This document shows, in pieces, positions 15,680-36,109 of a stretch of 36,760 bases of DNA. The DNA lies in the IMG/VR virus record IMGVR_UViG_3300025732_000123, positions 1-36,760 of that record. One strand, written 5' to 3'. This DNA is from a virus. A program made the position numbers and the translations under genes. The first letter of the stretch is position 1. Each line of letters starts with the position of its first letter. The notes below the pieces were generated by a model, which worked only from the letters and a program-made list of their open reading frames with translations, had not been told where the DNA came from and made no database searches.

Positions 15680-17812
15680 ATGGCCGCCCAGTCTTTTAGC
15701 ATCAATGTTGACGGCAAAAAGTACAAGATAACTGCGGACAGCCCCGAAGCAGCCGAACGCGGATTCAGGAAAGTTCAGGAGCTTCGGGAAAAAGAGACTT
15801 CTCCGCAGGGGTTTGCTGAGAAGGCATTGGATTTCGGACAAGGCGTTGCTGAGACCGGAATGACAATGGCTTCGTCGATGCTTGCCGAACCGCTTGCTGG
15901 GTGGAAGGGGCTTTATAACCTCGCGACAGGGGATCTGAACAAGGCCGCAGAGTCTGTCGAAAAAACGCAGGAAGAGATGACTTACGAGCCTAGGTCTAGG
16001 AGCGGAAAAGCGATTGTAGGAGCTGCTGGGCAGCTTATGGAGCCTGTAGCGAAGGCAGCCGACTGGACAGGCGAGCAGGCAGCAGAAGCTCTTGGTCCGG
16101 CGGCTGGAGCGGCTGTTCGTTCTGGAATCGAGTTTATTCCTAATTTGATCCCGGGCGGAGGAGTAGCCAGAGCCGCTGGAAATGTAAAATCTGGGGCAAA
16201 AAATCTGGCGAAGGGAGAGGCTAGAAAGGCCTTGGAAGACTTAACAGCGGCAGCCGCAAATGCAAACATATTTTCGGCTGTTTCTCCCGATAAACTAGGC
16301 AGAAAAGATCTCGTCAAGAAGGCCACCAAGCGCTTTGCTGAGTCCGGCATAGACTTGACTGAGCCAGTCGCGACGCAGGCCAAGCAATTTGTACTAAAAG
16401 CTAAAAATTTGTCTGGAAATCAGGTTCGTTATGCTGAACGACTGAAAGAAATTGCAGACGCTGGGCGGAGATTAGATCAAAGATACAAAGAAAAAGGGGA
16501 CGAGTTGTATACGCTCGCTTCTTCAAAGAAAGCAGCGATTCCTCAAAAAGCGTTCTTGGATTTTTCGGACGACATCACGAACTACATTAACGAGGGTCGT
16601 TTTGCGCTTGATGCAATGCCTCAGCTTAAGGCAGTTCTTAGTAACATAAAAAAACAGGCTGAAATGCCTGACGCTGTTCCCATGGGAGGGCCGAACGGAA
16701 TCGTTACGCTCAGAAGGGCTCTTGGGAAAAGAGTAAAGGGCGAAGAAGGCGCAGCATTTGGCCACATCCGGGCAAGGCTTGATGGCCTTATCCGTGATGC
16801 TTACGACAACCAAACAATGCTTGGGGATAGGTCTGTTTTTCCGGCGCTTATTGGCGCGGATAAGTTCTGGGCGAATTATCGGCGTCTATTTGACGAAGAA
16901 AAAGCAGTTCGAAAGATACTTAGCAACAAGGAGATCACGCCGGAGGAGGTTCGTAAATCCTTGTTTGGAGAAAGCGCGCAGAAGTACCCGGCGGGTGCCC
17001 AGCGTGTTATGTCTCGCTTAAAGGAAATTTTTGGAGAAGATAGCCCGCAGATAAAGGCTCTTTCAACAGAGGTACGTTATTCCGTGTTGCAGCCTCTTCT
17101 GGAAGAGAGAGATCTCAGCAAGTTCAAGGAAAACGTCGATAATCTTTTGCTTAAAAACTACAGCCTTGCAACGGAGCTTTTGTCGCAAGACGATATAAAG
17201 AATCTCCGCTCGATGCGAGACTGGGCATCGGCCTACGACGCCACAAAAATGGGCAAAGAAAAGATTTCAGAGGCGCTGGATAGGCCCGCAGCAATCCTCA
17301 TTGCCAATGCTCTGGGCGCAAATAACACACTGGCCCTGAGTACCCTTAAGCAACAGGCGCTGCAAAAAGTACTAGGCCTTGTGGGCAGAGGCGCGGACGT
17401 TGATAGAAAACGCCTGCTTTCTGAGATAGCCGGCGTCGATCTTTATAGCCCTATGTCTGACATAAAGACGGTTGCCGCTCCTGCGTGGTTGCAGGAAGCG
17501 TATAACATTGCAGAAGAAGAGGCCAAAGATAAGCTGCTCAATGAGGTATCCGCCAAAAGACGGATGGAGGCTTTTCGAGGGGCATTTGAAAAAAATGCTG
17601 CTGTCCCCTCCACAAGAGGAATGCCCGGGTCTCAGGCACCTGCTGCTCCAGCGCCGGCGGCACCTGCTGCTCCCGCTCCGGGAGGAGCGCCGAACAGCCA
17701 GAGCCGCATGATGCTTGAGCAGTTGTTCCCGAACGACCAGCTTTTGCAGGGGCTCACTCCCCCGGCACAGGCGGCAGTACCTCCCGAGGAGGAGCAGCAA
17801 CCTGCGGCGTAG
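15680..17812 (+). CDS. Putative internal virion / ejection protein (710 aa)
   Basis: ATG 15680 follows AGGAGAAG. It begins with FSINVDGKKYKITADSPEAA followed by ERGFRKVQEL, a compact beta-alpha unit often found at the start of phage internal or tail-associated proteins. Residues about 50-190 are Ala/Gly-rich and amphipathic. Residues 200-620 are mostly helical and charged. The end is a Pro/Ala linker (APAPAAPAAPAPGG) and NSQSRMMLEQLFPNDQLLQG before an acidic tail. It is the last plus-strand virion gene, and its final 59 bp overlap the convergent exonuclease gene. No lytic-transglycosylase motif was recognised. Confidence 0.6.
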   Translation: MAAQSFSINVDGKKYKITADSPEAAERGFRKVQELREKETSPQGFAEKALDFGQGVAETGMTMASSMLAEPLAGWKGLYNLATGDLNKAAESVEKTQEEMTYEPRSRSGKAIVGAAGQLMEPVAKAADWTGEQAAEALGPAAGAAVRSGIEFIPNLIPGGGVARAAGNVKSGAKNLAKGEARKALEDLTAAAANANIFSAVSPDKLGRKDLVKKATKRFAESGIDLTEPVATQAKQFVLKAKNLSGNQVRYAERLKEIADAGRRLDQRYKEKGDELYTLASSKKAAIPQKAFLDFSDDITNYINEGRFALDAMPQLKAVLSNIKKQAEMPDAVPMGGPNGIVTLRRALGKRVKGEEGAAFGHIRARLDGLIRDAYDNQTMLGDRSVFPALIGADKFWANYRRLFDEEKAVRKILSNKEITPEEVRKSLFGESAQKYPAGAQRVMSRLKEIFGEDSPQIKALSTEVRYSVLQPLLEERDLSKFKENVDNLLLKNYSLATELLSQDDIKNLRSMRDWASAYDATKMGKEKISEALDRPAAILIANALGANNTLALSTLKQQALQKVLGLVGRGADVDRKRLLSEIAGVDLYSPMSDIKTVAAPAWLQEAYNIAEEEAKDKLLNEVSAKRRMEAFRGAFEKNAAVPSTRGMPGSQAPAAPAPAAPAAPAPGGAPNSQSRMMLEQLFPNDQLLQGLTPPAQAAVPPEEEQQPAA

Positions 17813-18491
17813 CGTCATAGTAGGCGCTTACCCGGCGCAGCCATTTCTCCTGATGTTGGGCGAAATCGCGGCCCGTGGTCGTAAACTCCAGCATGGTATT
17901 CGCATCATCACGGCAAGCCATTAGGATTACGCCGTAATCGATGCGAGTACCGTGGACCATGTCGTGTGCAAGCGCATACGCTGCGAGTTGCTGAAAATAG
18001 CTGTCGATCCAGCCCCTTCTTTTGACCTTATTGGACTGTTTGAAGTCGATAATGGCCAACTGACCACGGTACACGGCCACCATGTCCGCTGTTCCAGCAT
18101 ACTTGTCCGGGTAGTACAGGGGCACCTCGGAGCCATGGATGGCGTCGATGTTCTTGAAGAAGGTATTGATGAGCCGATAGCCCATTTCATAGCCTTTTGT
18201 CATGGCCCAGTTCGTCGGCCTTGGCAGGTCTCGCATAGCCACCATTCGTTCGATCACAGAGTGCATGTGGGTGCCCACAAGGGATGCCTCTGTTTTGATG
18301 CGCTCTGCCTCTTCTGTTCCAACCCTGTTTTCCCAGTCTTTCAAGGCCTGTTTGTCGCCTGTTGACGACAAGATATGGGTCACGCTGGGAAGGCGCTGTT
18401 CACCGTACACGTACCGGCGCCCGTTGGGGCCGTCTTCCCGACGTAGTTCTTCGTATTTGAACTCTTTCCTGATGGGTATCAAATCAACCAT
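17754..18491 (-). CDS. PD-(D/E)XK exonuclease of the RecB/Cas4/MGME1 type
   Basis: ATG (18491 on the minus strand) lies 9 nt after GGGAGGA. The 245-residue protein has LPSVTHILSST (34-44), a common opening of this family. VGTHMHSVIE (72-81) supplies the conserved His. The core is YAGTADMVAV (D136), LAIIDFKQSNK (D149, K151) and the motif-IV-like YFQQLAAYALAH (Q167/Q168, Y172). This is the catalytic layout of PD-(D/E)XK exonucleases. It is encoded behind, and overlaps by 13 nt, a SNF2-type helicase, so the pair probably acts in recombination or DNA end processing. The Pro-rich C-terminal tail lies inside the convergent virion gene. Confidence 0.88.
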   Translation of the reverse strand: MVDLIPIRKEFKYEELRREDGPNGRRYVYGEQRLPSVTHILSSTGDKQALKDWENRVGTEEAERIKTEASLVGTHMHSVIERMVAMRDLPRPTNWAMTKGYEMGYRLINTFFKNIDAIHGSEVPLYYPDKYAGTADMVAVYRGQLAIIDFKQSNKVKRRGWIDSYFQQLAAYALAHDMVHGTRIDYGVILMACRDDANTMLEFTTTGRDFAQHQEKWLRRVSAYYDATPQVAAPPREVLPPVPGE

Positions 18492-19930
18492 GACCGGATG
18501 TCCTCCCCTAGCACCTGATTTGCGATGTCAATCTTGTCCCTGAGCGCCTTGACTATTTTTTCGTCAACTGTTCGAGGGCACATCAGGTCAACGTAGGTCA
18601 CGTTTCGCTTCTGACCAATTCGATGAGCGCGGTCCTCGGACTGCAGGCGGATTTCAAGGTCAAAACTATTACTGTAGTAGACCACCAGATTGGCGGCGGT
18701 CAGGGTAATCCCGTAGCCCCCTGTCCGGGGGTTTCCGATGAAAAAGCGCAAGGGACTATCAGGGTCTTGGAAGTCCCTGACCACGCGTTGCCGTTCTTCC
18801 CCTTCAGTGTCTCCGTAATAGGTACCGACGGTCTCCATTCCATAGGTCTTTTGAAGTTCGAGTTTGATCGCCTCGATGTCGTGCCGATACGTGGCCCAGA
18901 TGATGACCTTGCCATCGGATTCTTCCAGCACATTCAGCAGTTCTTTGAGGCGGTTGTTGGGAAGCGAGACTACCTCCCCGGAATCTAGCTTTAGGTGCCC
19001 GCATACAATCTGATGTAGGCGCATCAACTGTGTAAGCGCGTTGACTGTGCTGGCCATGTCACGCTCAATGCTCGCGACGGCCAGATGTTTCATTTCCATG
19101 TAGACACGGCCCTGCTCATCGGTCAGGTCTACCTCTCGCTTGATGTAGAGTTTTTCTGGTAGGTCTAGGCACTCGTCTTTCGTGACGCGGAAGCTGAATT
19201 TATCAAGGCGTTCTTTTAGTTCATCGAGTTTCCTGTAAGCGACGACCTTGCGGAACGAATGACTGCCCAAGGCTTTCTCGACGGTGACAGCGTAACGCGA
19301 CTGGAACGCGTAGTAGCTACTGAACCCCAAGCAATCCTCGTTGAGGAAGAAGCACTGTTGGTATAGGTCCATCGGCGAACGAGTCACGGGAGAGCCGGTC
19401 ATGATTCGCCGAAAACGCGCTAATTTGCCTATTTTTGCGGCATTTTTTGACCTTGTCGCAGTATGGTTCTTGATGGTGGTGCTTTCATCAATGACCATGA
19501 GCGCCTTGTACATGTTCAGGAAGAACCTTGCGAAACTTGTTCCCTTGGACGTGGACAGTGCTTCGATATTCATGACCAGAATTCGCAGGTCTTCTGAGGA
19601 CTCCAGAAGGTCGTCCATCGCCTTCTTTTCCGCTTTTCGTGGGGCATGGGACCATAGTGCAATGCGGTGCACCACATGGCTGGGCATGTGCCTAGGGATT
19701 TCTGTGTCCACCCAGTTCCGATAGACGCCCTTCGGGGCGACGATGAGAGCAGCATTGATACGGCCAAGGTCGTACAGCATGGCAATGTTGTTGATCACCA
19801 TATACGACTTGCCTGTTCCCATCTCTGCAAAAAGGGCGGCGTTTTCTTTGTTCCAGAACCTAGCCAAATAGGCTTCTTGGTGTAGGAACGGCTTATTTTT
19901 GAATGGATAGTTGGCTAAAAATTGTTCCAT
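18479..19930 (-). CDS. SNF2-type DEAD-like helicase (483 aa)
   Basis: All superfamily 2 motifs are visible: Q-like FLHQEAYLARFW (16-27), Walker A AEMGTGKS (35-42, K41), motif II VIDESTTIKN (DEST at 148-151 in place of DEAH), and motif III MTGSPVTR. The C-terminal motif V is GNPRTGGYGITLTAANLVVY and motif VI is QSEDRAHRIGQKRNVTYVD. RAHRIGQ is characteristic of the SNF2/SWI2 group, and DEST variants occur in phage SNF2 proteins. It likely remodels DNA or protein-DNA complexes during replication, recombination or against host systems. It leads the only minus-strand operon in the window. Confidence 0.93.
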   Translation of the reverse strand: MEQFLANYPFKNKPFLHQEAYLARFWNKENAALFAEMGTGKSYMVINNIAMLYDLGRINAALIVAPKGVYRNWVDTEIPRHMPSHVVHRIALWSHAPRKAEKKAMDDLLESSEDLRILVMNIEALSTSKGTSFARFFLNMYKALMVIDESTTIKNHTATRSKNAAKIGKLARFRRIMTGSPVTRSPMDLYQQCFFLNEDCLGFSSYYAFQSRYAVTVEKALGSHSFRKVVAYRKLDELKERLDKFSFRVTKDECLDLPEKLYIKREVDLTDEQGRVYMEMKHLAVASIERDMASTVNALTQLMRLHQIVCGHLKLDSGEVVSLPNNRLKELLNVLEESDGKVIIWATYRHDIEAIKLELQKTYGMETVGTYYGDTEGEERQRVVRDFQDPDSPLRFFIGNPRTGGYGITLTAANLVVYYSNSFDLEIRLQSEDRAHRIGQKRNVTYVDLMCPRTVDEKIVKALRDKIDIANQVLGEDIRSWLI

Positions 19931-20012
19931 TGGTCTCTCTTTCTAGAGGGGATTGTATTTCCCACAGGGCCGAGTGTACTATCAGTCCTCGTTACAAAGA
20001 AAGGAGAAAACG
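19931..20012. promoter_or_regulatory. Divergent intergenic region with probable promoters both ways
   Basis: This 82-bp gap separates the minus helicase operon from the plus replication operon, so transcripts must start here or be read in from outside. On the minus strand TACAAT (complement of 19952-19957) is a good -10 element about 22 nt from the helicase ATG, with a poor -35. On the plus strand TTGTAT (19954-19959) and TGTACT (19976-19981) give a weak 16-nt-spaced pair. AAGGAG at 20001-20006 is the ribosome site of the plus gene. Confidence 0.4.
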
Positions 20013-20345
20013 ATGCCGACCGTCTACGTCGTGTCTGAGACCAAGCAGCACAACATCACTGGAGCGCTGAACTGGGGAGAAATCAAGGTGATTCTTCCCC
20101 CTAATGCTCAGGTGGCGTTCTCTGTTGAACCCACCGTTGCAAGAATCAAGCGCATGCTTGCAAACTTCGGAGACGAAGATTATCTTTTGTTCATCGGCGA
20201 CCCGACAGCCATTGGCATCATTAGTGCCGTGGCCGCTCACCGCAACAAAGGGCGCTTTAAGTGCCTGAAATGGGATAAGTTTGAGCGCCGATATATCCCA
20301 ATACAGATAGACTTGTTCCCGAGCAGAGGAAACGAATATGACTGA
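20013..20345 (+). CDS. Conserved small phage protein of the replication region (110 aa)
   Basis: The ATG at 20013 is chosen because AAGGAG lies 6 nt upstream; an in-frame ATG at 19953 lacks a ribosome site. The protein has VVSETKQHNITGALNWGEIK, LPPNAQVAFS, LANFGDEDYLLFIGDPTAIG and KGRFKCLKWDKFERRYIPIQ. The 'DDYLL..GDP.AIG...A.A...N.GR...LKWD...RRY.P' pattern is one I recognise from many uncharacterised phage proteins, but I know of no function. It overlaps the next gene by 8 nt at the head of the replication operon. It is probably an early protein. Confidence 0.8.
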   Translation: MPTVYVVSETKQHNITGALNWGEIKVILPPNAQVAFSVEPTVARIKRMLANFGDEDYLLFIGDPTAIGIISAVAAHRNKGRFKCLKWDKFERRYIPIQIDLFPSRGNEYD

Positions 20346-20883
20346 CCTCTTCGAAAAAGATGCTGCTGCATTCAGTATTGCAGATGATGCCTTATCCGGC
20401 ATTTCTGCCCTTGCCCGACGGGCCAAGGAACTTGAGAAAGAACTGGACGACATGGAGCAGAGCCTCAAGGAGCGGAAGGACCAGTACCGAAAGCTCACTG
20501 AGGAGTCCATCCCTGAAGCCCTTGCTACACTAGGCATGAAGTCGTTCAGGATGGACGACGGGTCTTCTATTGAGATCAAACCGTTTTACGGTGCGTCGAT
20601 CCCAGAAGGAAGGCGGGCGGAGGCTTACGAATGGCTGCGGAAACGCGGCTTCGATGACATCATTAAGAACACCGTCTCGGTGCGCTTTGGGCGCGGCGAA
20701 GACGAGTTGTGCGCTCGTCTTGTTCGGTTGCTGCGTGAGACGGGATACCCGCTTGAGCAGTCGGAGAAGGTAGAGCCCATGACCCTAAAGGCATGGGTTC
20801 GTGAGCAGGTGGAACGCGGAAATGAGTTCCCTCAAGAACTCTTCGGCGCATACATTGGCCAGAAGGCCGTAATCAAGTCATAA
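20338..20883 (+). CDS. Conserved phage replication-region protein with coiled coil (181 aa)
   Basis: Residues about 20-60 (LEKELDDMEQSLKERKDQYR) form a clear coiled coil, reminiscent in layout of Gam-like or siphovirus replication accessory proteins. It continues SIPEALATLGMKSFRMDDGS, PFYGASIPEGRRAEAYEWLR, FGDDIIKNTVSVRFGRGEDE-type sequence, and KVEPMTLKAWVREQVERGNE with PQELFGAYIGQKAVI. The C-terminal block is strongly conserved among phages that carry a neighbouring putative ssDNA-binding protein. Function is unknown. Given its position and coiled coil it may be a replication or recombination accessory factor. Confidence 0.75.
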   Translation: MTDLFEKDAAAFSIADDALSGISALARRAKELEKELDDMEQSLKERKDQYRKLTEESIPEALATLGMKSFRMDDGSSIEIKPFYGASIPEGRRAEAYEWLRKRGFDDIIKNTVSVRFGRGEDELCARLVRLLRETGYPLEQSEKVEPMTLKAWVREQVERGNEFPQELFGAYIGQKAVIKS

Positions 20884-20895
20884 GAGGAAAGAAAC

Positions 20896-21666
20896 ATGAG
20901 CAAAGATCTAGCACAGAAGGCCGAAACCGGCATGGTCGTCGTCAGCACGTTTGAGGAGGATGCTGCTGCGTCGGGTTTTGACGGAATGAATCAAGAAGAC
21001 TTTGCATTGCCGTTTTTACGGCTTCTGACGGCTTCCAGTCCAGAAGTTGGCGAAGTCGATGGAGCAATGCCCGGCATGGTGTACAACACCGTGACTGGTC
21101 AGCTGTACGACGGCAAGAAGGGGCTGATGGTGATTCCGTGCGCCTACGTGCGTCAGTATATTGAATGGGCTCCTCGTGGGTCTGGCAGTGGTGCTCCGGT
21201 TGCGATCTATTCGGCGACTAGCGACATTCTGTCCAGAACACACCGTGAGCCGGGGGACAATCGCGACTATCTTGATAACGGTAACTATATCGAGAACACC
21301 GCGAATCACTATGTGATGGTGCTGGACGAGAATGGCGTGCCTTCTCCCGCTCTTATCTCCATGAAGTCCACGCAGCTCAAGAAGAGCCGCAAGTGGAACA
21401 GCATGCAGATGAGCGTGAAGCTCCAGTCTAGTCAGGGCGGTCTTTATACCCCGCCGATGTTCAGTCAGATTTATCGACTGACCACGACCCAAGAATCAAA
21501 CGATAAGGGTAAGTGGTACGGCTGGGAGATCGAGCGTGTTGGGTCTGTGGAGGACATGGGTGTCTACCGTCTAGCGAAGGAGTTCGCCAATTCGGTGAAG
21601 TCGGGGGACGTTAAGGTCAAGCATCAAGACGAAGCTGCGACCACGGCGGAAGAAATCCCATTTTGA
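20896..21666 (+). CDS. Putative phage single-stranded DNA-binding protein
   Basis: ATG 20896 follows AGAGGAAAG. The 256-residue protein has QEDFALPFLRLLTASSPEVG, then MPGMVYNTVTGQLYDGKKGL and VIPCAYVRQYIEWAPRGSGS, a layout seen in phage proteins annotated as ssDNA-binding. It ends in an acidic tail finishing TTAEEIPF, like the DDDIPF-type tip that bacterial and phage SSBs use to bind replication partners. A strong terminator follows at once, separating it from the primase gene. The assignment rests on tail and context, with no recognisable classic OB-fold motif. Confidence 0.65.
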   Translation: MSKDLAQKAETGMVVVSTFEEDAAASGFDGMNQEDFALPFLRLLTASSPEVGEVDGAMPGMVYNTVTGQLYDGKKGLMVIPCAYVRQYIEWAPRGSGSGAPVAIYSATSDILSRTHREPGDNRDYLDNGNYIENTANHYVMVLDENGVPSPALISMKSTQLKKSRKWNSMQMSVKLQSSQGGLYTPPMFSQIYRLTTTQESNDKGKWYGWEIERVGSVEDMGVYRLAKEFANSVKSGDVKVKHQDEAATTAEEIPF

Positions 21667-21671
21667 CCCAT

Positions 21672-21697
21672 GCGGGGGCCTCGGCCCCCGCTTTTTT
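21672..21697 (+). terminator. Strong rho-independent terminator
   Basis: A perfect 8-bp stem GCGGGGGC / GCCCCCGC (21672-21679 and 21684-21691) with loop CTCG is followed by six T (21692-21697). It lies 5 nt after the SSB stop and 12 nt before the primase ATG. Only the plus strand has the T-run. It probably reduces transcription into the primase-helicase-polymerase genes. Confidence 0.92.
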
Positions 21698-21708
21698 GAG
21701 AAAGCAGA

Positions 21709-23238
21709 ATGACCAACGAACTCTCGCAATTCATGGCGATATTCGAGGGACTCGACATCGCCTATGGCACCTATCGAATTGAGGGGTCGAAATCCAATGG
21801 AAAACAAGCAGGAAAAGCGGTCGTCGTCAGACAACCTCCGACTAAGGACCTTTGGGAACGACATCTACGAGGAGGTGAGCCTTCTCTGGGAATTATTCCG
21901 ATTCGTGGCGATAATTCTTGTGGGTGGGGCTGTATTGATATTGACCAGTATCCTTTGGACCTTGGACTGGTTGTTCACAAGGTTCGCTCCCTTGGCCTCC
22001 CTCTAGTTGTTTGCCGCTCCAAATCCGGAGGCGCGCACGTATTTTGTTTTGTTTCCTCTCCTATCCCTGCTGGAGATATGCAGGAGTACCTGCGTGCCTG
22101 CGCGGCACTGATAGGTGAATCAGGTCGGGAAATTTTCCCAAAGCAGGCGGAAATTCTCATAGAGCGTGGGGACACGGGGAACTTCCTGAATCTGCCGTAC
22201 CACAACGCGGACGAGACGCTTCGATATGCGATCAAGGACAACGGCGAGGCGGCGACACTAGAAGAGTTCTTCGAACTCTACCGGCAGCATGTCCAGACGC
22301 CTCCGCTGACTATTCCGCAGGCTCCTAAGGCCGCAGAGAAGGTCATCGCCGACGGGCCGCCTTGCTTGCAGGCCTTGTGTTCACAGGGGTTTCCGGAGGG
22401 CACGCGTAACAACGGCCTGTTCAGCCTTGGCGTCTATCTGAAGAAGGCGTTCCCCGAAGCATGGGAGAACAAGCTCATGGAACACAACATGAACTACTTC
22501 TCGCCCCCGCTGGGAATCTCCGAACTGCAGATTGTCGTCAAGCAGCTCAACAAGAAGACATATAACTACAAGTGCAAGGACCAGCCGCTGGTTAGCTTCT
22601 GCAACAGTGGGCTGTGCCGCACGCGTAAATATGGAATAGGGTCCGAGGGTCCTGATAGCCCTCGCCTGACATCTCTCAGCAAGTACGCATCAGAGCCGCC
22701 GCTGTGGTTCTTGGACGTGAACGGGAAACGCATCGAACTGGAGACAGAGAGCCTGTTCAATCAGGCATCTTTCCAGAAGGCTTGCATGGAGAAGATTAAC
22801 GTAGTCCCTCCGACGCTGCGTAAGAACGACTGGGAAAGTGTCCTGAATGGACTTCTCCGCGAGATGGTGGAGCTGGAACATATTCAGGACGCCTCAGAGG
22901 ACACGACCACGACGGGGCGCTTCAACGACCTTCTCGAAGAATTTTGCACGCACCTGCATCAAGCCATGGACCGTGATGAAATCCTCATGGGCAGGCCATG
23001 GACGGACGAAGAGCAGGCAGCGGTGTACTTCCGAATGAAGGACCTAGAGGCGCACTTGAAGCGCAACAACATGCTTCTTTCATCTCCTAAAGTAGCGCAG
23101 CGACTACGCGACCTCGGAGGGCAGTCTCAAGTGCTGTGGCTCAAGGCCCGCGCAACACGGGTCTGGAAGATCGACGCATTCACTAAACAGGACTCCCCGT
23201 TCCCAACGCCGGAACAAAGCTCGGGTGCTCCGTTCTAG
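21709..23238 (+). CDS. Archaeo-eukaryotic-type (TOTE-like AEP) DNA primase
   Basis: The 509-residue protein has the AEP signature: WGCIDIDQYP with the metal-binding DxD (D77, D79), RSKSGGAHVFCF (SGGxH, 106-110), then EILIERGDTGNFLNLPYHNA (residues 148-167). The third acidic residue probably lies in this last block. A C-terminal half starts PPCLQALCSQGFPEGTRNNG and carries three spaced Cys (C289, C298, C303) plus C219/C224, which may bind zinc or an Fe-S cluster. This matches TOTE-type primases of phages. It would make primers for the polymerase encoded two genes on. It sits behind a terminator, with no strong ribosome site. Confidence 0.88.
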   Translation: MTNELSQFMAIFEGLDIAYGTYRIEGSKSNGKQAGKAVVVRQPPTKDLWERHLRGGEPSLGIIPIRGDNSCGWGCIDIDQYPLDLGLVVHKVRSLGLPLVVCRSKSGGAHVFCFVSSPIPAGDMQEYLRACAALIGESGREIFPKQAEILIERGDTGNFLNLPYHNADETLRYAIKDNGEAATLEEFFELYRQHVQTPPLTIPQAPKAAEKVIADGPPCLQALCSQGFPEGTRNNGLFSLGVYLKKAFPEAWENKLMEHNMNYFSPPLGISELQIVVKQLNKKTYNYKCKDQPLVSFCNSGLCRTRKYGIGSEGPDSPRLTSLSKYASEPPLWFLDVNGKRIELETESLFNQASFQKACMEKINVVPPTLRKNDWESVLNGLLREMVELEHIQDASEDTTTTGRFNDLLEEFCTHLHQAMDRDEILMGRPWTDEEQAAVYFRMKDLEAHLKRNNMLLSSPKVAQRLRDLGGQSQVLWLKARATRVWKIDAFTKQDSPFPTPEQSSGAPF

Positions 23239-23241
23239 GCC

Positions 23242-24741
23242 ATGCGGGTCCAGAAAATATTTGGGCCTCCGGGTTCAGGCAAGACTACCTATCTTCTAGG
23301 CCTTGTTGAGAAGGAACTAGAAGAGGGGACCAGTTCCTCTGCGATAGGGTACTTCTCCTTCACCAGAAAGGCCTCAATAGAGGCTCGGGAACGCGCTATA
23401 CAGCGATTCCCGACCCTCGTTCCTGACATCGATTTCCCGTGGTTCAGGACGCTACATAGTCTGGCGTACTACTGCCTAGGCGTGAGTACAAAGGACATGA
23501 TGCGGCCCGAGAACTTCCGGGAGTTCTCCGCGCAGGTTGGGATCGAAATAGTCACCGAGACAGACGACGAAGTGTTTTCTGTTCGGGCAGACAATCCGAT
23601 TCTAAATCAAATAAACCTTGCCAGAATCAAGGGCGAGGACCTGCGCGTCCACTACAACAGAAGCAACATAGATATCGAATGGCATCACTTCGAGTACATC
23701 TCGCGTGCCTATCGTCACTATAAGGCGTCCAAGGAGCTGCTGGATTTTAACGACCTGCTAGAACGTATTCTGGAGCAGCCGGAGAGACTGCCGTCGCTAG
23801 ACGTGCTCATCATCGACGAGGCGCAGGACCTGTCGAAACTCCAGTGGCAGATTGTTGAACATCTCGTGAAGAAGGCGAAGCGTTCATACCTTGCGGGAGA
23901 TGACGATCAAGCCGTCTACAACTGGGCAGGGGCCGATGTCCATGCCTTTCTAGGCTTTGAAGGCGAACCTCTGGTCTTACAGCAGTCCTATAGAGTCCCG
24001 CTCGAAATCCATGCGCTGGCAAACCGCGTGGTCAAACGAATTCGCGTGCGTCAGGAAAAAATATGGCACCCTCGCGAGGAACGCGGGACGATAGCGTTCT
24101 ACAACGACTTCCAGAAAGTAGACCTGAGTTCAGGGCAGTGGCTCGTGCTCGCGGCGACCAATCACCTGCTCAACGAAATGCACACATGGCTCAAGGGCCA
24201 AGGGATTCTGTTCGAGCGCCACGGACAACGGAGCATATCCGAGGCCGTCCTTACCGCCGTAATGGGGTGGGAGACACTGCGACGCGGAGGAAGCGTGTCG
24301 TCAAAGACCGTCAAGGCAATCTACAAGTACCTTGGAACACCGTTCGTGGCCCGAGGACAGCGGTCCTTGGCGCTTCTGCCAGAAGAAGGCCTGTTCTCGT
24401 TGAACAGACTTCGCGAGAACTACGGGCTGCAGACAGACGCCATCTGGCACGAGACGTTAACCAAGATCGACGCTGCAAAGCGCGATTACATCATCGCTAT
24501 TCTCCGCAGAAAGACTAAGTTAACTGGAGAGATAAACGTTAAACTGTCCACGATACACGGCGCGAAGGGAGGCGAGGCCGACAACGTGCTGATGCTGACA
24601 GAACTTTCGACCAAGTTCGCTGACGAGTATCAGCGGAATCCGGATGACATCAACAGGCTCCTGTATGTGGGGATTACTCGCGCGAAGCAGTCTCTGCACT
24701 TGGTGCATCCACGCAATGCAAAAAAGGCCTTTTTCCTATGA
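23242..24741 (+). CDS. UvrD/PcrA-like superfamily 1 helicase
   Basis: Complete SF1A motif set in 499 residues: Walker A GPPGSGKTT (8-16), Ia-like FSFTRKASIEA, motif II VLIIDEAQDLSKLQ, motif III LAGDDDQAVYNWAGAD, motif IV LQQSYRVP, motif V STIHGAKGGEADNVLML and motif VI RLLYVGITRAKQSLHLVHP. It is shorter than UvrD (about 720 residues), lacking much of the 1B/2B insertions, as in many phage versions. It lies 3 bp after the primase and overlaps the polymerase ATG by 4 nt. It is the likely replicative or strand-displacing helicase, since no DnaB or T7-gp4-type helicase is visible. Confidence 0.95.
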   Translation: MRVQKIFGPPGSGKTTYLLGLVEKELEEGTSSSAIGYFSFTRKASIEARERAIQRFPTLVPDIDFPWFRTLHSLAYYCLGVSTKDMMRPENFREFSAQVGIEIVTETDDEVFSVRADNPILNQINLARIKGEDLRVHYNRSNIDIEWHHFEYISRAYRHYKASKELLDFNDLLERILEQPERLPSLDVLIIDEAQDLSKLQWQIVEHLVKKAKRSYLAGDDDQAVYNWAGADVHAFLGFEGEPLVLQQSYRVPLEIHALANRVVKRIRVRQEKIWHPREERGTIAFYNDFQKVDLSSGQWLVLAATNHLLNEMHTWLKGQGILFERHGQRSISEAVLTAVMGWETLRRGGSVSSKTVKAIYKYLGTPFVARGQRSLALLPEEGLFSLNRLRENYGLQTDAIWHETLTKIDAAKRDYIIAILRRKTKLTGEINVKLSTIHGAKGGEADNVLMLTELSTKFADEYQRNPDDINRLLYVGITRAKQSLHLVHPRNAKKAFFL

Positions 24742-26600
24742 GAACACTTCCTCTTTTCGCCCCTAAATCGGAGTGGGTTCCTCCTGCTTCTTTCCCGGAC
24801 CTGAGCGAGGCCACAGAAATCGCTATCGACCTCGAGACCTGCGACCCGCACATGGATACTCATGGACCGGGGTGGCCCAGAAAAGACGGATACATCGTAG
24901 GCTACGCAGTGGCTGTGGAGGGATGGAAGGGATACTTCCCTGTTGCCCACGCAGGCGGTGGAAACCTTGATCGCAAAGTTGTCGAGCGATGGATGACCAA
25001 GGTGCTTGAACTGCCATGCCCAAAGATTATGCACAATGCTGCCTACGACCTTGGGTGGCTGCTGGCGTCAGGGTTCAAAGTGAATGGCCGCATTCTGGAC
25101 ACGATGATTGCCGCCGGCGTCGTCGATGAGAATAGGTATTCCTACGCCCTCAACAGTCTTGGCTTCGATTTCTTGAAGGAGACCAAATCCGAGGTCGGCC
25201 TGAAGGAGGCGGCTGCCGATTTTGGCGTCCACCCGAAGAAAGAACTTTGGAAACTTCCGGCTATGTTCGTGGGGGATTACGCAGAACAGGACGCAGCGCT
25301 CACGCTGAAGCTCTGGCAATACCTGAAGACCGCGCTGCGTAAAGAGGACGTAGAAGCGATCTTCGAACTGGAGTGCGACCTTCTGCCCGTACTGGTGAAC
25401 GTTACCTTGAAAGGGGTCCGGTTCAACGTGGCCAAGGCAGGGGAGTTGATTCAGGAGATGGCGGGCGAAGAACGAAGGACCATTGACACCATCTCGGAGA
25501 TTGCAGGACAGAAGGTGGACATCTGGGCTGCGGCCAGCATTGCCCCTGCTTTTGACAAACTAAAAATAAAATACCCCCGGACGACGACCGGACTGCCAAG
25601 TTTCACACGGTCTTTTCTGGAATCCTGCGATGCCCCGATTGCACGTATGATCGTGTCTGCCCGGGAACTGAACAAAACCTACGGAACGTTCCTCAAGCCT
25701 TACATCGACTTCGCAGGGGACGGTCGCATCCATCCGCACATCAACCAGCTGCGTGGGGACGACGGCGGGACGGTCACAGGCCGCCTATCAATGTCGAATC
25801 CTAACCTTCAGCAGGTCCCTGCGCGGCACGAGGTCATCGGACCTACCGTCCGGTCGCTCTTCCTGCCAGAAGAGGGGCAACAGTGGGCCGCGATGGACTT
25901 TTCTTCGCAGGAGCCTCGCCTGCTTGTGCACTACGCAACCCTCCTCGGCCTACCGGGCGCGGAGACCATGGCACAGGCTTACCGCGAGAACCCTGACACT
26001 GACTTTCACCAGATGGTCGCGGATTTGGCCCAAATTAAGCGGAAACAGGCCAAAACTATTGGACTCGGTCTAATGTACGGGATGGGTAAGGCCAAACTGG
26101 CAGGGCAGCTCGATATGCCTGTGGAGGAGGCGTCGGAATTGATGGCCACTTTCCACCAGAAGGTGCCGTTCCTCCGGGGCACTGTTGATTCGGTCATGAA
26201 GAGGATCGAACATCCAGCCTCTGGCGGGGCCATCCGGACGCTACTGGGCCGCAAGTGCCGGTTCCCACTGTGGGAGCCCATTGAGTACGGCATCAACAAG
26301 GCGCTCCCCCGAGAGGAAGCAGCGGCCAAGTACGGTCCCCGCATCCGCAGGGCGATGACCTACAAGGGCCTGAACAGGCTCATCCAAGGGTCAGCGGCAG
26401 ACCAGACCAAGTCGGCTATGGTGAAGCTCTTCAAGGCCGGATTCCCTCCCCTGTTGCAGGTGCACGACGAGATTGCCATCAGCGTGAATAGCCGCGAAGA
26501 GGCCGAGGCTGCGGCCGAAATCATGCTGAATGCGGTCAAGTTGGAGGTTCCCAGCAAGGTTGATATTGAAATCGGTCCCTCATGGGGCGAAGCCTGTTGA
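24738..26600 (+). CDS. polA: Family A DNA polymerase with 3'-5' exonuclease domain
   Basis: Starts in an ATGA overlap with the helicase. The exonuclease domain has AIDLET (D31, E33), MHNAAYDLGWL (D104) and YAEQDAALT (Y181, D185). The polymerase domain has TGRLSMSNPNLQQVPAR, motif A AAMDFSSQEPRLL (D387), motif B KRKQAKTIGLGLMYGMG (R435, K439, Y447) and motif C LLQVHDEIAIS (H576-E578). There is no N-terminal 5' nuclease; 620 residues fits phage PolA. The residue matching E. coli Phe762 is Leu (L443), a variant linked in virome studies to slower, more faithful synthesis. All catalytic residues appear intact. Confidence 0.97.
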   Translation: MRTLPLFAPKSEWVPPASFPDLSEATEIAIDLETCDPHMDTHGPGWPRKDGYIVGYAVAVEGWKGYFPVAHAGGGNLDRKVVERWMTKVLELPCPKIMHNAAYDLGWLLASGFKVNGRILDTMIAAGVVDENRYSYALNSLGFDFLKETKSEVGLKEAAADFGVHPKKELWKLPAMFVGDYAEQDAALTLKLWQYLKTALRKEDVEAIFELECDLLPVLVNVTLKGVRFNVAKAGELIQEMAGEERRTIDTISEIAGQKVDIWAAASIAPAFDKLKIKYPRTTTGLPSFTRSFLESCDAPIARMIVSARELNKTYGTFLKPYIDFAGDGRIHPHINQLRGDDGGTVTGRLSMSNPNLQQVPARHEVIGPTVRSLFLPEEGQQWAAMDFSSQEPRLLVHYATLLGLPGAETMAQAYRENPDTDFHQMVADLAQIKRKQAKTIGLGLMYGMGKAKLAGQLDMPVEEASELMATFHQKVPFLRGTVDSVMKRIEHPASGGAIRTLLGRKCRFPLWEPIEYGINKALPREEAAAKYGPRIRRAMTYKGLNRLIQGSAADQTKSAMVKLFKAGFPPLLQVHDEIAISVNSREEAEAAAEIMLNAVKLEVPSKVDIEIGPSWGEAC

Positions 26601-27912: not shown

Positions 27913-28971
27913 ATGCGAACTCCGAAGAAGGCGATGCCCGGTCGCGGCAAGAAGGTCATGGCGAAGAAGCCCGCTGCTAAGAAGCCCGCTGCTAAAAAGG
28001 TCATGGCCAAGGGCAAGGTTCCTGTCCAGAAGTATCAGGTAGGTGGTGTGGCCGCTCCCGCTCGGACCGCGATGGCGACTACTCCTGCAGCGCGTCCGGG
28101 AATGGCCGTCCCCGGACGCGGGATGGCCGTCCCGCGTCCGGGCATGGGTGGTTCGATGATTGCCAACAATGGCGGTGGCATGGGCCGTGGAGTGCCTCGT
28201 CCGGGCATGGGTGGTTCGATGATTGCCAACAACGGCGGTGGGATGATGTCTCCTCCGTCTCGGCCCAACATTCCGGGGATCACTCCTCCAATCAATCGCC
28301 CCGTTCGCACTCCGCCGCAGCCGCAGGGGATGCCGCAGGGAATGAGCCCGGCAATGCAGCAGTACGCTCAGATGATGCAGCAGCGGCAGGGGATGCGCGC
28401 TGCTGGTGGGATTGGCGGGCATTCAGGGCTGCAGGGGATGGACCCAGCAATGCAACAGCAGTATCAAAGGCAGCTGGAGCAGGCCGCGCAGCAGCGGCAG
28501 GGGATGCCGCAGCAAGGGCAGCAGCAGTTCATGCAGTCTGTCAGGGCAGGTGCTCCTACAGCAGGACCGACGGCGCAGGTATACCCCGCAATGCCGTCAG
28601 GACCGACGGCGCAGGTATACCCCGCAATGCCGCAGCGGCAGGGGATGCAGGGTATGCAGGGACTGGGCGCGGGGCAGGGAATGGACCCAAAAATGCATCC
28701 GGATTATCAGTCGCCGGAGACCATCGACTTGCGGGATCCTGCGATGGCTGCTCGGTATGGGCATCTGGGTCGTGAGCCGCAGCCGTTGACGCAGGAGCAG
28801 TTGCAGCAATTGCAGCAGTTTGGGACGCCGCTGCCGCGCTTCAGGAAAGGCGGCGAGGCCAAGAAAAAGGCCGCAGCGCAAGGTCGCATGGCCAAGCCCG
28901 CAGGGCGGGGCCGCATGACTAAACCCGCAGTGCGTGGCCGCATGGCCAAGCCGACACGAGGGAAGAAGTAA
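27913..28971 (+). CDS. Histone-H1-like Lys/Ala/Pro, Met/Gln/Gly-rich protein (352 aa)
   Basis: ATG 27913 follows AGGAAG. The N-terminus (residues 1-45: KKAMPGRGKKVMAKKPAAKK, then PAAKKVMAKGK) resembles histone H1 tails. The middle is Gly/Met/Pro/Gln-rich with internal duplications (PRPGMGGSMIANNGGGM twice; GPTAQVYPAMP twice). The end is FRKGGEAKKKAAAQGRMAKP followed by further GRGRM(T/A)KP units, a second basic tail. The whole chain is probably disordered with two DNA-binding-like ends. I infer a DNA-condensing or virion-packaged protein; no solid homology is claimed. Confidence 0.65.
   Translation: MRTPKKAMPGRGKKVMAKKPAAKKPAAKKVMAKGKVPVQKYQVGGVAAPARTAMATTPAARPGMAVPGRGMAVPRPGMGGSMIANNGGGMGRGVPRPGMGGSMIANNGGGMMSPPSRPNIPGITPPINRPVRTPPQPQGMPQGMSPAMQQYAQMMQQRQGMRAAGGIGGHSGLQGMDPAMQQQYQRQLEQAAQQRQGMPQQGQQQFMQSVRAGAPTAGPTAQVYPAMPSGPTAQVYPAMPQRQGMQGMQGLGAGQGMDPKMHPDYQSPETIDLRDPAMAARYGHLGREPQPLTQEQLQQLQQFGTPLPRFRKGGEAKKKAAAQGRMAKPAGRGRMTKPAVRGRMAKPTRGKK
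28135..28635 (+). repeat. Internal duplications in the H1-like gene (63 bp and 36 bp)
   Basis: A 63-bp unit starting CGTCCGGGCATGGGTGG repeats at 28135 and 28198, near identical over about 48 bp. A 36-bp unit (GGACCGACGGCGCAGGTATA onward) repeats at 28564 and 28600, almost perfectly. Both are in frame. Confidence 0.9.
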
Positions 28972-30259: not shown

Positions 30260-30663
30260 GAGAACCTAAAAAGACCGCTAAGAAGGCTGTGAGGAATCTG
30301 GCTAAAGGGGGCGCTAAACTGCCCCTTGAGCCTATGCCCTATACCAGCCCGGATTTTCAAAAAAGGATAGATTATCCTGAGCGGTCTCCTGTTTTGCGTA
30401 ATAAAAACGGACAGGTTGAAACCCATCGAATGGCTGCGGAGCGAGGAGAAGATGGGAAATGGTACGTCTTCCCCACCGTACAAAACATAGGTGGTAAACT
30501 TAAAAAGTTCTCTAGCGTTCCAAGCGCTTTTAGTTCCGCCATCAAACGCGGAGATTACTATCGGTTCAATACAAAAAAAGAAGCTATTCCGTATGCTTCT
30601 GGGGCATATAAAACGCCTAAATTTAAGCAGTTCTATAAAGAACTTCCCGGTAGTAAAAAATGA
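30256..30663 (+). CDS. Phage protein with a compact DNA-spaced 'VETHRMA...FPT' domain (135 aa)
   Basis: GTG 30256 is coupled to the previous stop as GTGA. After a basic leader (KKTAKKAVRNLAKGGAKLPL) comes a compact domain: DYPERSPVLRNKNGQVETHR, MAAERGEDGKWYVFPTVQNI, SAIKRGDYYRFNTKKEAIPY and YKTPKFKQFYKE. This 'LRNxxGxVxTxxMAAExxxxGxWYxFPT...G....F.....A..YA...YK' layout recurs in phage proteins of unknown role. It overlaps the endolysin start as ATGA, so it belongs to the run-up to the lysis genes. Confidence 0.65.
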   Translation: MREPKKTAKKAVRNLAKGGAKLPLEPMPYTSPDFQKRIDYPERSPVLRNKNGQVETHRMAAERGEDGKWYVFPTVQNIGGKLKKFSSVPSAFSSAIKRGDYYRFNTKKEAIPYASGAYKTPKFKQFYKELPGSKK

Positions 30664-31010
30664 TCGAAACCCTCGGACAGCGACAGCGGCGCTTTACGCT
30701 CTATGTCGGCAAGCTCATTCTCTGGGCGTACGACAACGGGTTTGAGTTGACCGTGGGCGATGCCTATCGCTCTCCCGAGGCGGCGAAAATATACGCGGAG
30801 CGTGGCATCGGCTCGGCCACCAGCCTGCACTGCGAACGTCTGGCCATCGACCTGAACTTGTTCATCAAAGAAAAATACCAGACCGACACAGCGGCCTATG
30901 CGCCGCTCGGCAAGTACTGGAAGTCTCTTCACCCTGACTGTGCGTGGGGCGGAGACTTCCGCCGTCAAGACGGGAACCATTTCAGTCTACGCTACGGGAA
31001 CATGGCATGA
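30660..31010 (+). CDS. Endolysin, M15-family peptidase
   Basis: Starts in an ATGA overlap. The 116-residue protein has the M15 (VanY / L-Ala-D-Glu carboxypeptidase) layout: GDAYRSPEAA (R37), SLHCERLAIDLNLF with zinc ligands H57 and D64, then HPDCAWGGDFRRQDGNHFSL with H107 as third ligand. It should cut peptide crosslinks or stems in peptidoglycan at lysis. It has no signal peptide, fitting release by the holin encoded next, with which it overlaps by 4 nt. Length matches T5-like minimal endolysins. Confidence 0.93.
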   Translation: MIETLGQRQRRFTLYVGKLILWAYDNGFELTVGDAYRSPEAAKIYAERGIGSATSLHCERLAIDLNLFIKEKYQTDTAAYAPLGKYWKSLHPDCAWGGDFRRQDGNHFSLRYGNMA

Positions 31011-31423
31011 TCGCAGACGCAATCGCTGGAGTCGTCGGAAAAATAATCGACCGTGCATGGCCAGACCCTGCACAGAAAGCTGCCGCGCTTCTCGAACTGG
31101 AGAAGATGAAGCAGGCAGGCGAGTTCAAACAGCTTGATGCAGACATCCAAGCTATGCAGATGCAGGCCGATGTCAACAAAGTCGAAGCAGCCAGCACCGA
31201 CCCGTTCACCTCGCGGTGGCGTCCCTTTGTGGGATGGGTGTGCGGCTCTGCCTTGGCATGGCACTACATTGGTCGACCGTTGGCCGGATGGGTGCTGTTG
31301 CTTGCGGGAAATTCCACGCCAATCCCGGCAGTGGATTTGGGGGACCTCATCGTGATTCTGCTCGGGCTCTTAGGGCTCGGAGGTCTTCGCTCGTATGACA
31401 AACGTTTTGGGACTGCAAAATAA
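31007..31423 (+). CDS. 3TM holin of the gene-transfer-agent type (138 aa)
   Basis: ATG 31007 in an ATGA overlap with the endolysin. It matches the 3TM holin family first defined for gene transfer agent release: an N-terminal amphipathic segment (ADAIAGVVGKIIDRAWPDPA), a Lys/Glu helix with QADVNKVEAASTDPF, then TSRWRPFVGWVCGSALAWHY and a C-terminal hydrophobic stretch (LGDLIVILLGLLGLGGLRSY). It would make the inner-membrane lesion that lets the endolysin through. No Rz-type spanin was found beside it. Confidence 0.9.
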   Translation: MIADAIAGVVGKIIDRAWPDPAQKAAALLELEKMKQAGEFKQLDADIQAMQMQADVNKVEAASTDPFTSRWRPFVGWVCGSALAWHYIGRPLAGWVLLLAGNSTPIPAVDLGDLIVILLGLLGLGGLRSYDKRFGTAK

Positions 31424-31964
31424 AAGACGCTGTGGTTACTGCCACGAAATAAAACCCCTCACAGAATTTTTCGCATCCTTAACCAAACCTCTCGGCAAAC
31501 AGCACACATGCAAAGTCTGCCAAAAATATTTACGCGCAAAATATCGCAGCGGCCCAGAGGCCAAGAAGAAACGCTCCGAAGAGGATTTGAAAAAAAGATA
31601 CGGCATAACCTCCGACCAGCTCCAGCGTATGATCGCAAGTGTTGGAGGGGTGTGTGAGATTTGCCAAAAGCCGCCGTCGCGCTCACGATTGTTCGTGGAC
31701 CATTGTCACTCGTCCAAGCGCGTGCGGGGCCTGCTGTGTTCACCATGTAATCTTGGCCTAGGGAGTTTCAGAGATGACATCGACACCCTACGCCGCGCAA
31801 TCCATTACCTAGTCTATGACCTGCAGATGCCAGACCGCTGGGAGATTCTCCTCAATGAAAAAATTCGTCCCCGTAGAGCCAGACCGCTGGCAAGTGCTCG
31901 GCGACCACGCAATGCCGACCGACAACGTAAATCGCCCAGCGCACTATCAGAGGGGCAACCTTGA
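31395..31964 (+). CDS. Recombination endonuclease VII (HNH/treble-clef)
   Basis: ATG 31395 overlaps the holin by 29 nt; GGAGG lies 11 nt upstream. Residues 13-42 contain two Cys pairs (C13/C16, C39/C42), an extra zinc knuckle. The endonuclease VII core runs from about 65 to 140: EEDLKKRYGITSDQLQRMIA, CEICQKPP (C87, C90), LFVDHCHSSKRVRGLLCSPC (D102-H105, C115, C118) and NLGLGSFRDD. It should resolve branched or Holliday DNA before packaging, as T4 gp49 does, or act as a homing-like nuclease. The Arg-rich tail from residue 154 overlaps the next gene. Confidence 0.9.
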   Translation: MTNVLGLQNKRRCGYCHEIKPLTEFFASLTKPLGKQHTCKVCQKYLRAKYRSGPEAKKKRSEEDLKKRYGITSDQLQRMIASVGGVCEICQKPPSRSRLFVDHCHSSKRVRGLLCSPCNLGLGSFRDDIDTLRRAIHYLVYDLQMPDRWEILLNEKIRPRRARPLASARRPRNADRQRKSPSALSEGQP

Positions 31965-34801: not shown

Positions 34802-35020
34802 GACATGATTGAGAAGATTGCGGATTGTTTGCTGCAAGATCACATTGATCTAATGAACCAGAACAAATTGCTCAGAGAATCCTTGAAGGAGTTGTTGGAC
34901 GAGTACCATCCAGAAGAATGCTGGACCGCTGAGCACATCGAATTTGAAACGGAGCAGGGGAACATGATGGCTCCAGTGGTCAAGCGCGCCTATGCCGCCT
35001 TACGTGAGGGGGATAAATAG
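34796..35020 (+). CDS. Small unknown protein before thyX (74 aa)
   Basis: ATG 34796 is chosen because AGGAG lies 8 nt upstream, inside the repeat. It reads NDMIEKIADCLLQDHIDLMN and KLLRESLKELLDEYHPEECW, then a MMAPVVKRAYAALREGDK end. The middle is a likely coiled coil. It is probably the ancestral partner of the 34064 gene, with the cassette inserted between. Function unknown. Confidence 0.65.
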   Translation: MNDMIEKIADCLLQDHIDLMNQNKLLRESLKELLDEYHPEECWTAEHIEFETEQGNMMAPVVKRAYAALREGDK

Positions 35021-35021
35021 C

Positions 35022-35678
35022 ATGCACGTAAGACTAATCTCGTACACCACAACGCCTCTGGGAATCATGGCCCCGGAGCAGTTGATTGCTTACTGCGCGC
35101 GAGTGAGTAACCCGCAAAACCAAGACAATCACGCGACGGCTGACAAGTTGTTGCGGTATTTGATTGATCACAAGCATTGGTCGCCGTTCGAGCTGGTGAA
35201 TGTTTGTATGGAGGTCAAAACCACCCGGGACATCGCCCGGCAGATGTTACGGCACCGTAGTTTTTCTTTTCAGGAATTCTCGCAACGCTACGCCGATCCG
35301 ACAGAGCTTGGGTATGTTTTCCGGGAAGCGCGGCTGCACGATCCTAAGAACCGACAGAATTCTATCGAAGGCGTCGGCCCGGAGTTACAGCAACGCTGGG
35401 ATGCGTACCAGAATGAAATCATAAAAGCAGCACTTGACGGGTATAAGTGGGCGAGGGAAAACGGCATTGCAAAAGAAGTCGCACGGGCCCTGCTGCCCGA
35501 GGGGATGATGGAGAGCGTGCTCTATATGAACGGTAGCGTCCGTTCGTGGATTCACTACCTTGATGTTCGCACCGACTCTTCTACCCAGAAAGAGCACCGG
35601 CAGGTGGCATTAGAGTGCGCGAAGATTATTATAGAGTTGATGCCGAGTCTAGTTAAGAAAGAAATCGAGGAAAGATGA
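35022..35678 (+). CDS. thyX: FAD-dependent thymidylate synthase ThyX
   Basis: ATG 35022 follows the previous stop by 1 nt with GAGGGGG upstream. The 218-residue protein has the ThyX signature RHRSFSFQEFSQR (77-89), matching RHRxxSxxxxSxR, and conserved HKHWSPFELVNVCMEVKT (50-67) and LDVRTDSSTQKEHRQVAL near the end. It makes dTMP from dUMP with methylenetetrahydrofolate, FAD and NADPH, feeding phage DNA synthesis. It overlaps the methylase gene as ATGA. Confidence 0.96.
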   Translation: MHVRLISYTTTPLGIMAPEQLIAYCARVSNPQNQDNHATADKLLRYLIDHKHWSPFELVNVCMEVKTTRDIARQMLRHRSFSFQEFSQRYADPTELGYVFREARLHDPKNRQNSIEGVGPELQQRWDAYQNEIIKAALDGYKWARENGIAKEVARALLPEGMMESVLYMNGSVRSWIHYLDVRTDSSTQKEHRQVALECAKIIIELMPSLVKKEIEER

Positions 35679-36109
35679 TCAACACCGGGCTATTCACTAG
35701 CGCTACACCTGAGTGGGCGACGCCACAGGATTTATTCGACAGGCTGGACGCCGTGCATCACTTTACTTTGGACGTGTGCGCTACTCCTGAGAATGCGAAA
35801 TGCGCGCATTACTTCACCAAGGAACAGGACGGATTGTCGCAGGAATGGTCAGGGCGGGTGTGGATGAATCCGCCTTATGGCAGGGAGATTGGGCTGTGGA
35901 TCGACAAAGCGCTTCACGCTTCACGGACCACGGCCAGTCTTGTCGTCTGTCTGTTACCTGCGCGGACGGACACCAAGTGGTTTCACGAGCTGTGTTTTCC
36001 GCACGGCAAAGTAGAGTTCCTGCGCGGGCGTTTGAAGTTCGGTGGGGTCAAGAATTCCGCACCGTTCCCAAGCATGCTCGTCACATTTGTAACCAAGGGG
36101 GAGAAGTAA
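35675..36109 (+). CDS. Phage DNA N6-adenine methyltransferase (Dam-type)
   Basis: Starts in an ATGA overlap with thyX. The 144-residue protein has the phage Dam family layout: EWATPQDLFDRLDAVHHFTL, DVCATPENAKCAHYFTKEQD and WMNPPYGREIGLW, with the catalytic NPPY at 65-68. KFGGVKNSAPFPSMLVTF forms the end. It lacks the N-terminal FxGxG SAM motif in classic form, as is usual here. It probably methylates adenine in phage DNA, protecting against host restriction or marking it. Confidence 0.93.
   Translation: MINTGLFTSATPEWATPQDLFDRLDAVHHFTLDVCATPENAKCAHYFTKEQDGLSQEWSGRVWMNPPYGREIGLWIDKALHASRTTASLVVCLLPARTDTKWFHELCFPHGKVEFLRGRLKFGGVKNSAPFPSMLVTFVTKGEK

Follow-up and report, generated by a model that had tools for sequence, protein, structure and literature searches.

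A widespread phage replication module with a UvrD/Rep-type helicase as candidate fork motor and no recognizable ring helicase

Which enzyme opens the replication fork when a phage replication module encodes a primase, a polymerase and a helicase, but no recognizable ring helicase? To our knowledge, the cellular and phage forks that have been studied well almost all employ a ring helicase. The question arises from a 36,760-base IMG/VR fragment (the window, meaning the whole stretch of DNA analyzed). Sequence comparison identifies this segment as a piece of a common water-borne phage; it carries the replication module of a podovirus whose relatives include phage DSL-LC04 and the HTVC023P-type pelagiphages. 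In the block at 20896-26600 the gene for a Pam3_gp34-like protein comes first, followed by those for an AEP primase, a UvrD/Rep-type SF1A helicase and, last, a proofreading family A polymerase. A SNF2 translocase and a PD-(D/E)XK nuclease lie upstream in divergent orientation, and small Pam3_gp32- and gp33-like genes sit between this pair and gp34. The features are as follows.

17754..18491, minus strand: PD-(D/E)XK exonuclease (phrog_298, 5.5e-51; PDDEXK_1, weak; 63% identity in DSL-LC04)
18479..19930, minus strand: SNF2-type SF2 translocase (PF00176, 2.5e-23; Helicase_C, 7e-14; phrog_62, 4e-119)
19953..20345, plus strand: Pam3_gp32-like small protein (PF23992, 7e-26)
20338..20883, plus strand: Pam3_gp33-like protein (DUF7307, phrog_2378; PF23984, 1e-33)
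20896..21666, plus strand: Pam3_gp34-like protein, probable ssDNA-binding protein (PF23977, 8e-67)
21672..21697, plus strand: terminator-like hairpin between gp34 and primase (8 G-C pairs, then T6)
21709..23238, plus strand: AEP-type primase (PF22548 (AEP-TOTE), 1.6e-11; phrog_21866 'primase', 1.7e-93)
23242..24741, plus strand: compact SF1A (UvrD/Rep/PcrA-type) helicase (PF00580, 2.5e-32; phrog_1967, 1.5e-80)
24738..26600, plus strand: family A DNA polymerase with 3'-5' exonuclease (PF00476, 5.8e-59; PF01612, 1.5e-8)

Sequence conservation identifies the four open reading frames at 20896-21666, 21709-23238, 23242-24741 and 24738-26600 as real genes, with identity of 55-88% across tens of environmental relatives. 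Chance can be set aside because the catalytic residues are conserved across 131-193 homologues. Identities to the isolate DSL-LC04 are 77% for gp34, 70% for the primase, 62% for UvrD, 75% for PolA and 72% for SNF2. The sequence-only reading had named an AEP primase, a UvrD/PcrA-like helicase and a family A polymerase, with a SNF2 helicase and a RecB-like exonuclease on the other strand. The Pfam and PHROGs matches and the conserved motifs bear out the first three, and the SNF2 gene (18479-19930) and the phrog_298 nuclease gene (17754-18491) are both on the minus strand.

That reading had also placed the block in one coupled run, which holds for primase-UvrD-PolA, where a 3-bp gap is followed by a 4-bp overlap. 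It does not hold for gp34, which is set apart by the hairpin at 21672-21697, likely a terminator judging from its sequence. A resembling hairpin was seen in 15 of the 76 relatives of the window type and not in any of the 80 of the HTVC023P type, where about 7 bp separate gp34 from the primase. The surroundings of the module contain a single sigma-70-like site, fewer than expected by chance. The SNF2, PD-(D/E)XK nuclease and gp32/gp33 genes are proposed to form an adjoining recombination or DNA-handling module. The gp33-like homologue in DSL-LC04 carries the annotation 'putative DNA ends protecting protein', and the real start of the gp32-like gene is probably an internal ATG near 20013.

The primase retains D77, D79, S106, G108 and H110 of the DxD and SGGxH motifs, each at least 98% conserved among 193 primases, and its C-terminal region has four conserved cysteines (C219, C289, C298, C303). 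All 24 phage records that match most of the primase also carry the UvrD, which in Kokobel2 is cut at the record end. The primase and UvrD genes overlap in R5C, HTVC023P and Pan1. The otherwise unrelated Thermus phage Riverbug has a member of the same UvrD family overlapping a small gene annotated 'primase', to which Pfam and PHROGs assign no family. A -PF ending (SPF or APF) is also found on the primase in 82 of 195 relatives, those of the window type, and may act as a further SSB-like docking tip; the HTVC023P-type enzymes terminate in FRT.

The helicase has SF1 motifs I, II, III, V and VI in order (GPPGSGKT at residue 8, DEAQD at 192, GDDDQ at 219, STIHGAKGGEAD at 436 and YVGITRAK at 475), and the key motif residues are conserved in 181 homologues. 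Its AlphaFold model (pLDDT 92) aligns with Deinococcus radiodurans UvrD at Z = 33.5 and with E. coli Rep at Z = 33.2 over 383-390 residues. Residues 300-432 align to E. coli UvrD 332-553 with about 89 fewer residues in the region of the auxiliary 2B subdomain, which appears reduced. Rep monomers become active when 2B is deleted (PMC13238157). Within the window type, UvrD is less conserved than the primase and PolA (mostly 57-66% identity versus about 70%). The literature search turned up neither biochemical nor genetic work on this helicase family. Dinoroseobacter phage R5C (L086) and Pseudanabaena phage Pan1 (L085), which have queuosine-pathway genes, each contain a second UvrD-family match besides the module helicase, and R5C also has a Dda-like helicase.

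The absence of a ring helicase was analyzed in the window and in its relatives. The sequence-only reading saw no hexameric helicase or TOPRIM primase in the window, and the 36.8-kb fragment indeed has no ring helicase, no TOPRIM primase and no DnaB_C match; its only real Walker A motifs belong to UvrD and SNF2. Half of a first set of 22 relatives were complete phage records, from isolates or circular (11), and the other half were IMG/VR contigs 45-62 kb long (11). UvrD, PolA and gp34 were present in 22/22 and SNF2 in 21/22, and none of the 22 gave a real DnaB match by PF03796 or phrog_19. A second set of 26 further records contained 23 with UvrD, and 0/23 matched phrog_19. The total is 45 UvrD-bearing genomes or long contigs (22/22 and 23/26), 11 of which are complete records of the same type. 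Three kinds of candidate were rejected in the first set. A DnaB_C match in one genome (G002, 11-13 bits) sits in a small kinase/nucleotidyltransferase-like P-loop gene and not in a helicase. The AAA_25 matches all fall under the curated cut-off and lie mostly on UvrD, SNF2 or Dda-like genes. A Toprim_2 match in G009 (14.6 bits) is also under the cut-off, and none passes it.

A profile-free Walker A scan of seven complete genomes took in every open reading frame with 100 residues or more. It recovered UvrD in all seven, and the other credible P-loops were terminase and a nucleotide kinase. SNF2 was picked up in DSL-LC04 only, its motif being degenerate elsewhere. Two phages have a ring-type ATPase instead of UvrD, and both are distant. 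Phage ct52p938 encodes DnaB and no UvrD; its AEP primase is a distant relative, only about 30% identical over part of its length. No other part of the module was detected in this phage, which comes from the same spring as the UvrD-bearing ct3Et533. Xanthomonas phage Carpasina has gp34 and SNF2 without UvrD or PolA, and a VirE-like AAA+ protein, of a class predicted to be helicases (PMC5862659), adjoins its RepB-type primase. Detection of the ct52p938 DnaB and the Carpasina VirE-like protein shows that the scans are able to find ring-type ATPases. The Carpasina gene content indicates that the SNF2/gp34 block travels separately from UvrD/PolA. In this phage the RepB-type AEP primase and its VirE-like neighbor lie at L228:4206-7039, the shared genes are gp32-gp33-gp34 and SNF2, and there is a Pol III. 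Two gp34-bearing contigs (G034, G035) have neither UvrD nor DnaB, the only two helicases looked for in them. A ring helicase elsewhere in the genome, the finding named in advance as refuting, was not seen in the complete relatives; the virus of the window itself is known from the 36.8-kb fragment alone.

Because no ring helicase was found in complete relatives and a ring-type ATPase occurs where UvrD is missing, the UvrD-like protein emerges as the best candidate for the fork helicase, as the earlier reading had suggested. In the proposed mechanism the AEP primase would lay primers and the compact UvrD/Rep-type helicase would unwind the fork, probably 3' to 5' on the leading-strand template directly ahead of the polymerase. 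The Leu762 proofreading family A polymerase would extend both strands, and the gp34-like protein would probably coat the displaced single strand. We assign this mechanism as a whole a probability of roughly 0.6. The sequences show the gene identities, the intact catalytic motifs and the lack of a recognizable ring helicase in complete relatives; that UvrD drives the fork, the direction in which it moves, the binding of ssDNA by gp34 and every contact between the proteins are inferred.

The sequence-only reading called the gp34-like protein an SSB, a name that no library gives it, and PF23977 is a named family without known function. The C-terminus is PF in 167 of 206 relatives and ends in F or Y in 201 of 206, and the same ending occurs in 0-1 of the gp33, UvrD and PolA sequences. 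Nanhaivirus-type members terminate in DEEIPF or KDDEVPF, closely resembling the DDDIPF tip of E. coli SSB. The last 12 residues have a mean net charge of -1.7, and PolA is equally acidic there (-1.6). The AlphaFold model (pLDDT 85.6) has a confident core and a low-confidence tail, so the tail is SSB-Ct-like in being disordered, acidic and aromatic at its end (x-PF).

The first neighbor of the gp34 model in a second-look structural alignment comes from the PhiC31 integrase-RDF (recombination directionality factor) excision complex, one chain of which matches over 150 residues (Z = 8.6, 9% identity). It hints at a fold that this RDF and the gp34 proteins may have in common. Ranks 2-5 are the BRCA2 OB region (Z = 6.5 and 5.2), RB69 gp32 (6.1) and T4 gp32 (5.4), with unrelated folds scoring in the same Z range. 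Lower ranks are mostly other ssDNA-binding OB proteins at Z = 3-4, values that unrelated folds reach too. Foldseek returned no significant match for the model. A gp34 profile searched against PDB sequences gave weak matches only, mostly antibodies. The SSB reading is complicated by the DMU1/PMBT28/K21lambda1 group, in which gp34 coexists with a second annotated ssDNA-binding protein encoded downstream of PolA. The SSB-like tail and the weak OB-fold similarity argue for, and the missing annotation against, the earlier assignment, which has moderate support overall; gp34 is a probable ssDNA-binding protein.

Four other accounts of fork opening were weighed against the UvrD mechanism. The polymerase might separate the strands itself by strand displacement, leaving UvrD as an accessory for repair, recombination or protein clearing. 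Position 762 of PolA is Leu in 131 of 131 aligned relatives, window included, and the exonuclease residues D31, E33, D104, Y181 and D185 are conserved. Strand displacement was reported for 2 of 5 active Leu762 PolAs, and the displacing enzymes were linked to SNF2-carrying phages (Keown et al. 2022, PMC9069017); the window PolA is likewise a Leu762 enzyme accompanied by SNF2. However, displacement was reported at high enzyme concentration and with long incubations (PMC9069017), and it leaves unexplained both the motif-intact UvrD in every genome of the type and the ring-type ATPase in phages without UvrD. The AEP primase, moreover, implies lagging-strand priming. We consider this account unlikely.

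Recruitment of host DnaB as the fork helicase, with UvrD again an accessory, is a good deal less probable still. Bacterial hosts have DnaB, and its use is established for lambda-like phages, but this phage has its own AEP primase and PolA. No DnaC-type P-loop loader was found in the seven complete genomes, a search whose scope was P-loop proteins and not non-P-loop loaders such as lambda P. Nasko et al. argue that close polymerase-helicase contact bars phage polymerases from host helicases (PMC6302109).

SNF2 as the fork motor is highly improbable: it is near-universal in the group (21/22), but SNF2 proteins are regarded as translocases without strand separation (PMC9069017), and in Carpasina SNF2 coexists with the VirE-like ATPase, which argues that it is not a substitute for a ring helicase. 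Equally improbable is that this phage encodes a ring helicase outside the sequenced part, or one too diverged for any of the searches: although the contig is a fragment (36.8 kb versus 56-62 kb in near relatives), two DnaB profiles found none in the 56-kb contig of relative L007 (module 72-88% identical) or in the complete 61.5-kb DSL-LC04, where the P-loop scan found none either.

The UvrD-based replisome was called an unusual arrangement in the sequence-only reading, a description that does not stand: relatives of this primase occur in at least 590 environmental contigs in IMG/VR, and the replisome was described in 2018 (PMC6302109). The present observation is an independent sighting of a known arrangement. 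According to that study (Nasko et al. 2018, PMC6302109), Leu762 Group II PolA genes of Chesapeake Bay virioplankton have UvrD-like and SNF2-like neighbors, as in the window, with UvrD always accompanied by SNF2, and this replisome ranks second in abundance among those with PolA in one estuarine (Chesapeake) virome. The same text remarks on the non-ring helicases and on the poor processivity of known UvrD/Rep enzymes without partners. It is contig-based and links the group to temperate phages. Its available part shows, for this group, neither that complete genomes are free of ring helicases nor an AEP primase or gp34 partner. New here are the complete-genome evidence of no recognizable ring helicase, the AEP primase and gp34 partners, the conserved SSB-like tail, the apparently shortened 2B and a set of 26 genomes of the type in which no tyrosine integrase was found. 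This search, which covered tyrosine integrases and not serine integrases, does not agree with the proposed temperate lifestyle. The distant phage Riverbug has a tyrosine integrase. Absence of ribonucleotide reductase is a further trait of Leu762 Group II phages, and none is annotated in DSL-LC04.

A broader proposal, for and against which we see even odds, is that a widespread dsDNA phage group, from podoviruses to siphoviruses and without tyrosine integrase in the genomes searched, has no ring helicase. An SF1A helicase of compact build, its autoinhibitory 2B region shortened, would form a ringless replisome with an AEP primase and a Leu762 PolA, and the gp34 family would be a new SSB family. 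If a non-ring helicase does act alone in this abundant group, a ring would prove dispensable for a processive dsDNA phage fork. The 45 relatives, the 11 complete records of the type and the ring-type ATPases where UvrD is missing make the 2018 association directly testable.

A close relative is DSL-LC04 (OR003939), a complete circular genome of 61,547 bases in which the block keeps its gene order and the SNF2/nuclease pair is likewise divergent. HTVC023P-type pelagiphages (MN698239, MN698241, PMC9599517) have the same gene block and order, with 27-53% identity in the module among cultured members. The downstream genes of the window differ from those of both. A repetitive open reading frame (27913-28971) has an N-terminus that is histone-like and rich in Lys and Ala (KKPAAKKPAAKK), continues with Gly/Met/Pro/Gln repeats and is poorly conserved in relatives. 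A lysis cassette (endolysin-like gene and holin) followed by an endonuclease VII-type gene occupies 30660-31964; the endolysin-like and holin genes are 91-97% identical in the 56-kb relative L007. Adjoining open reading frames at 34992-36109 match thymidylate synthase (phrog_85) and DNA methyltransferase (phrog_111), both shorter than the profiles. Phages with adenylosuccinate synthetase (PurZ-type) genes (PMBT28, DMU1 and Klebsiella K21lambda1) share the AEP primase, SNF2, gp34, UvrD and PolA families and also have no DnaB. They differ in their low identity (about 22-36%), altered gene order and 2-aminoadenine-type purine genes.

A UvrD/Rep-type SF1A enzyme is a fork motor elsewhere, as E. 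coli Rep drives phiX174 and P2 replication. Those systems use the host Rep enzyme, rolling-circle initiation by a nicking protein and Pol III, whereas no nicking protein of that type was identified here. The helicase-primase pair of the window can also be likened to herpesvirus UL5/UL52 and baculovirus P143/LEF-1, in which an SF1 helicase and an AEP-superfamily primase drive the viral fork. Homology of the pairing is not claimed, and UL5 is a 5'-3' enzyme of another SF1 branch that works with a family B polymerase. If the UvrD mechanism is correct, a helicase-primase pairing for which herpesviruses are otherwise the known example could be studied in these phages, in a tractable bacterial setting.
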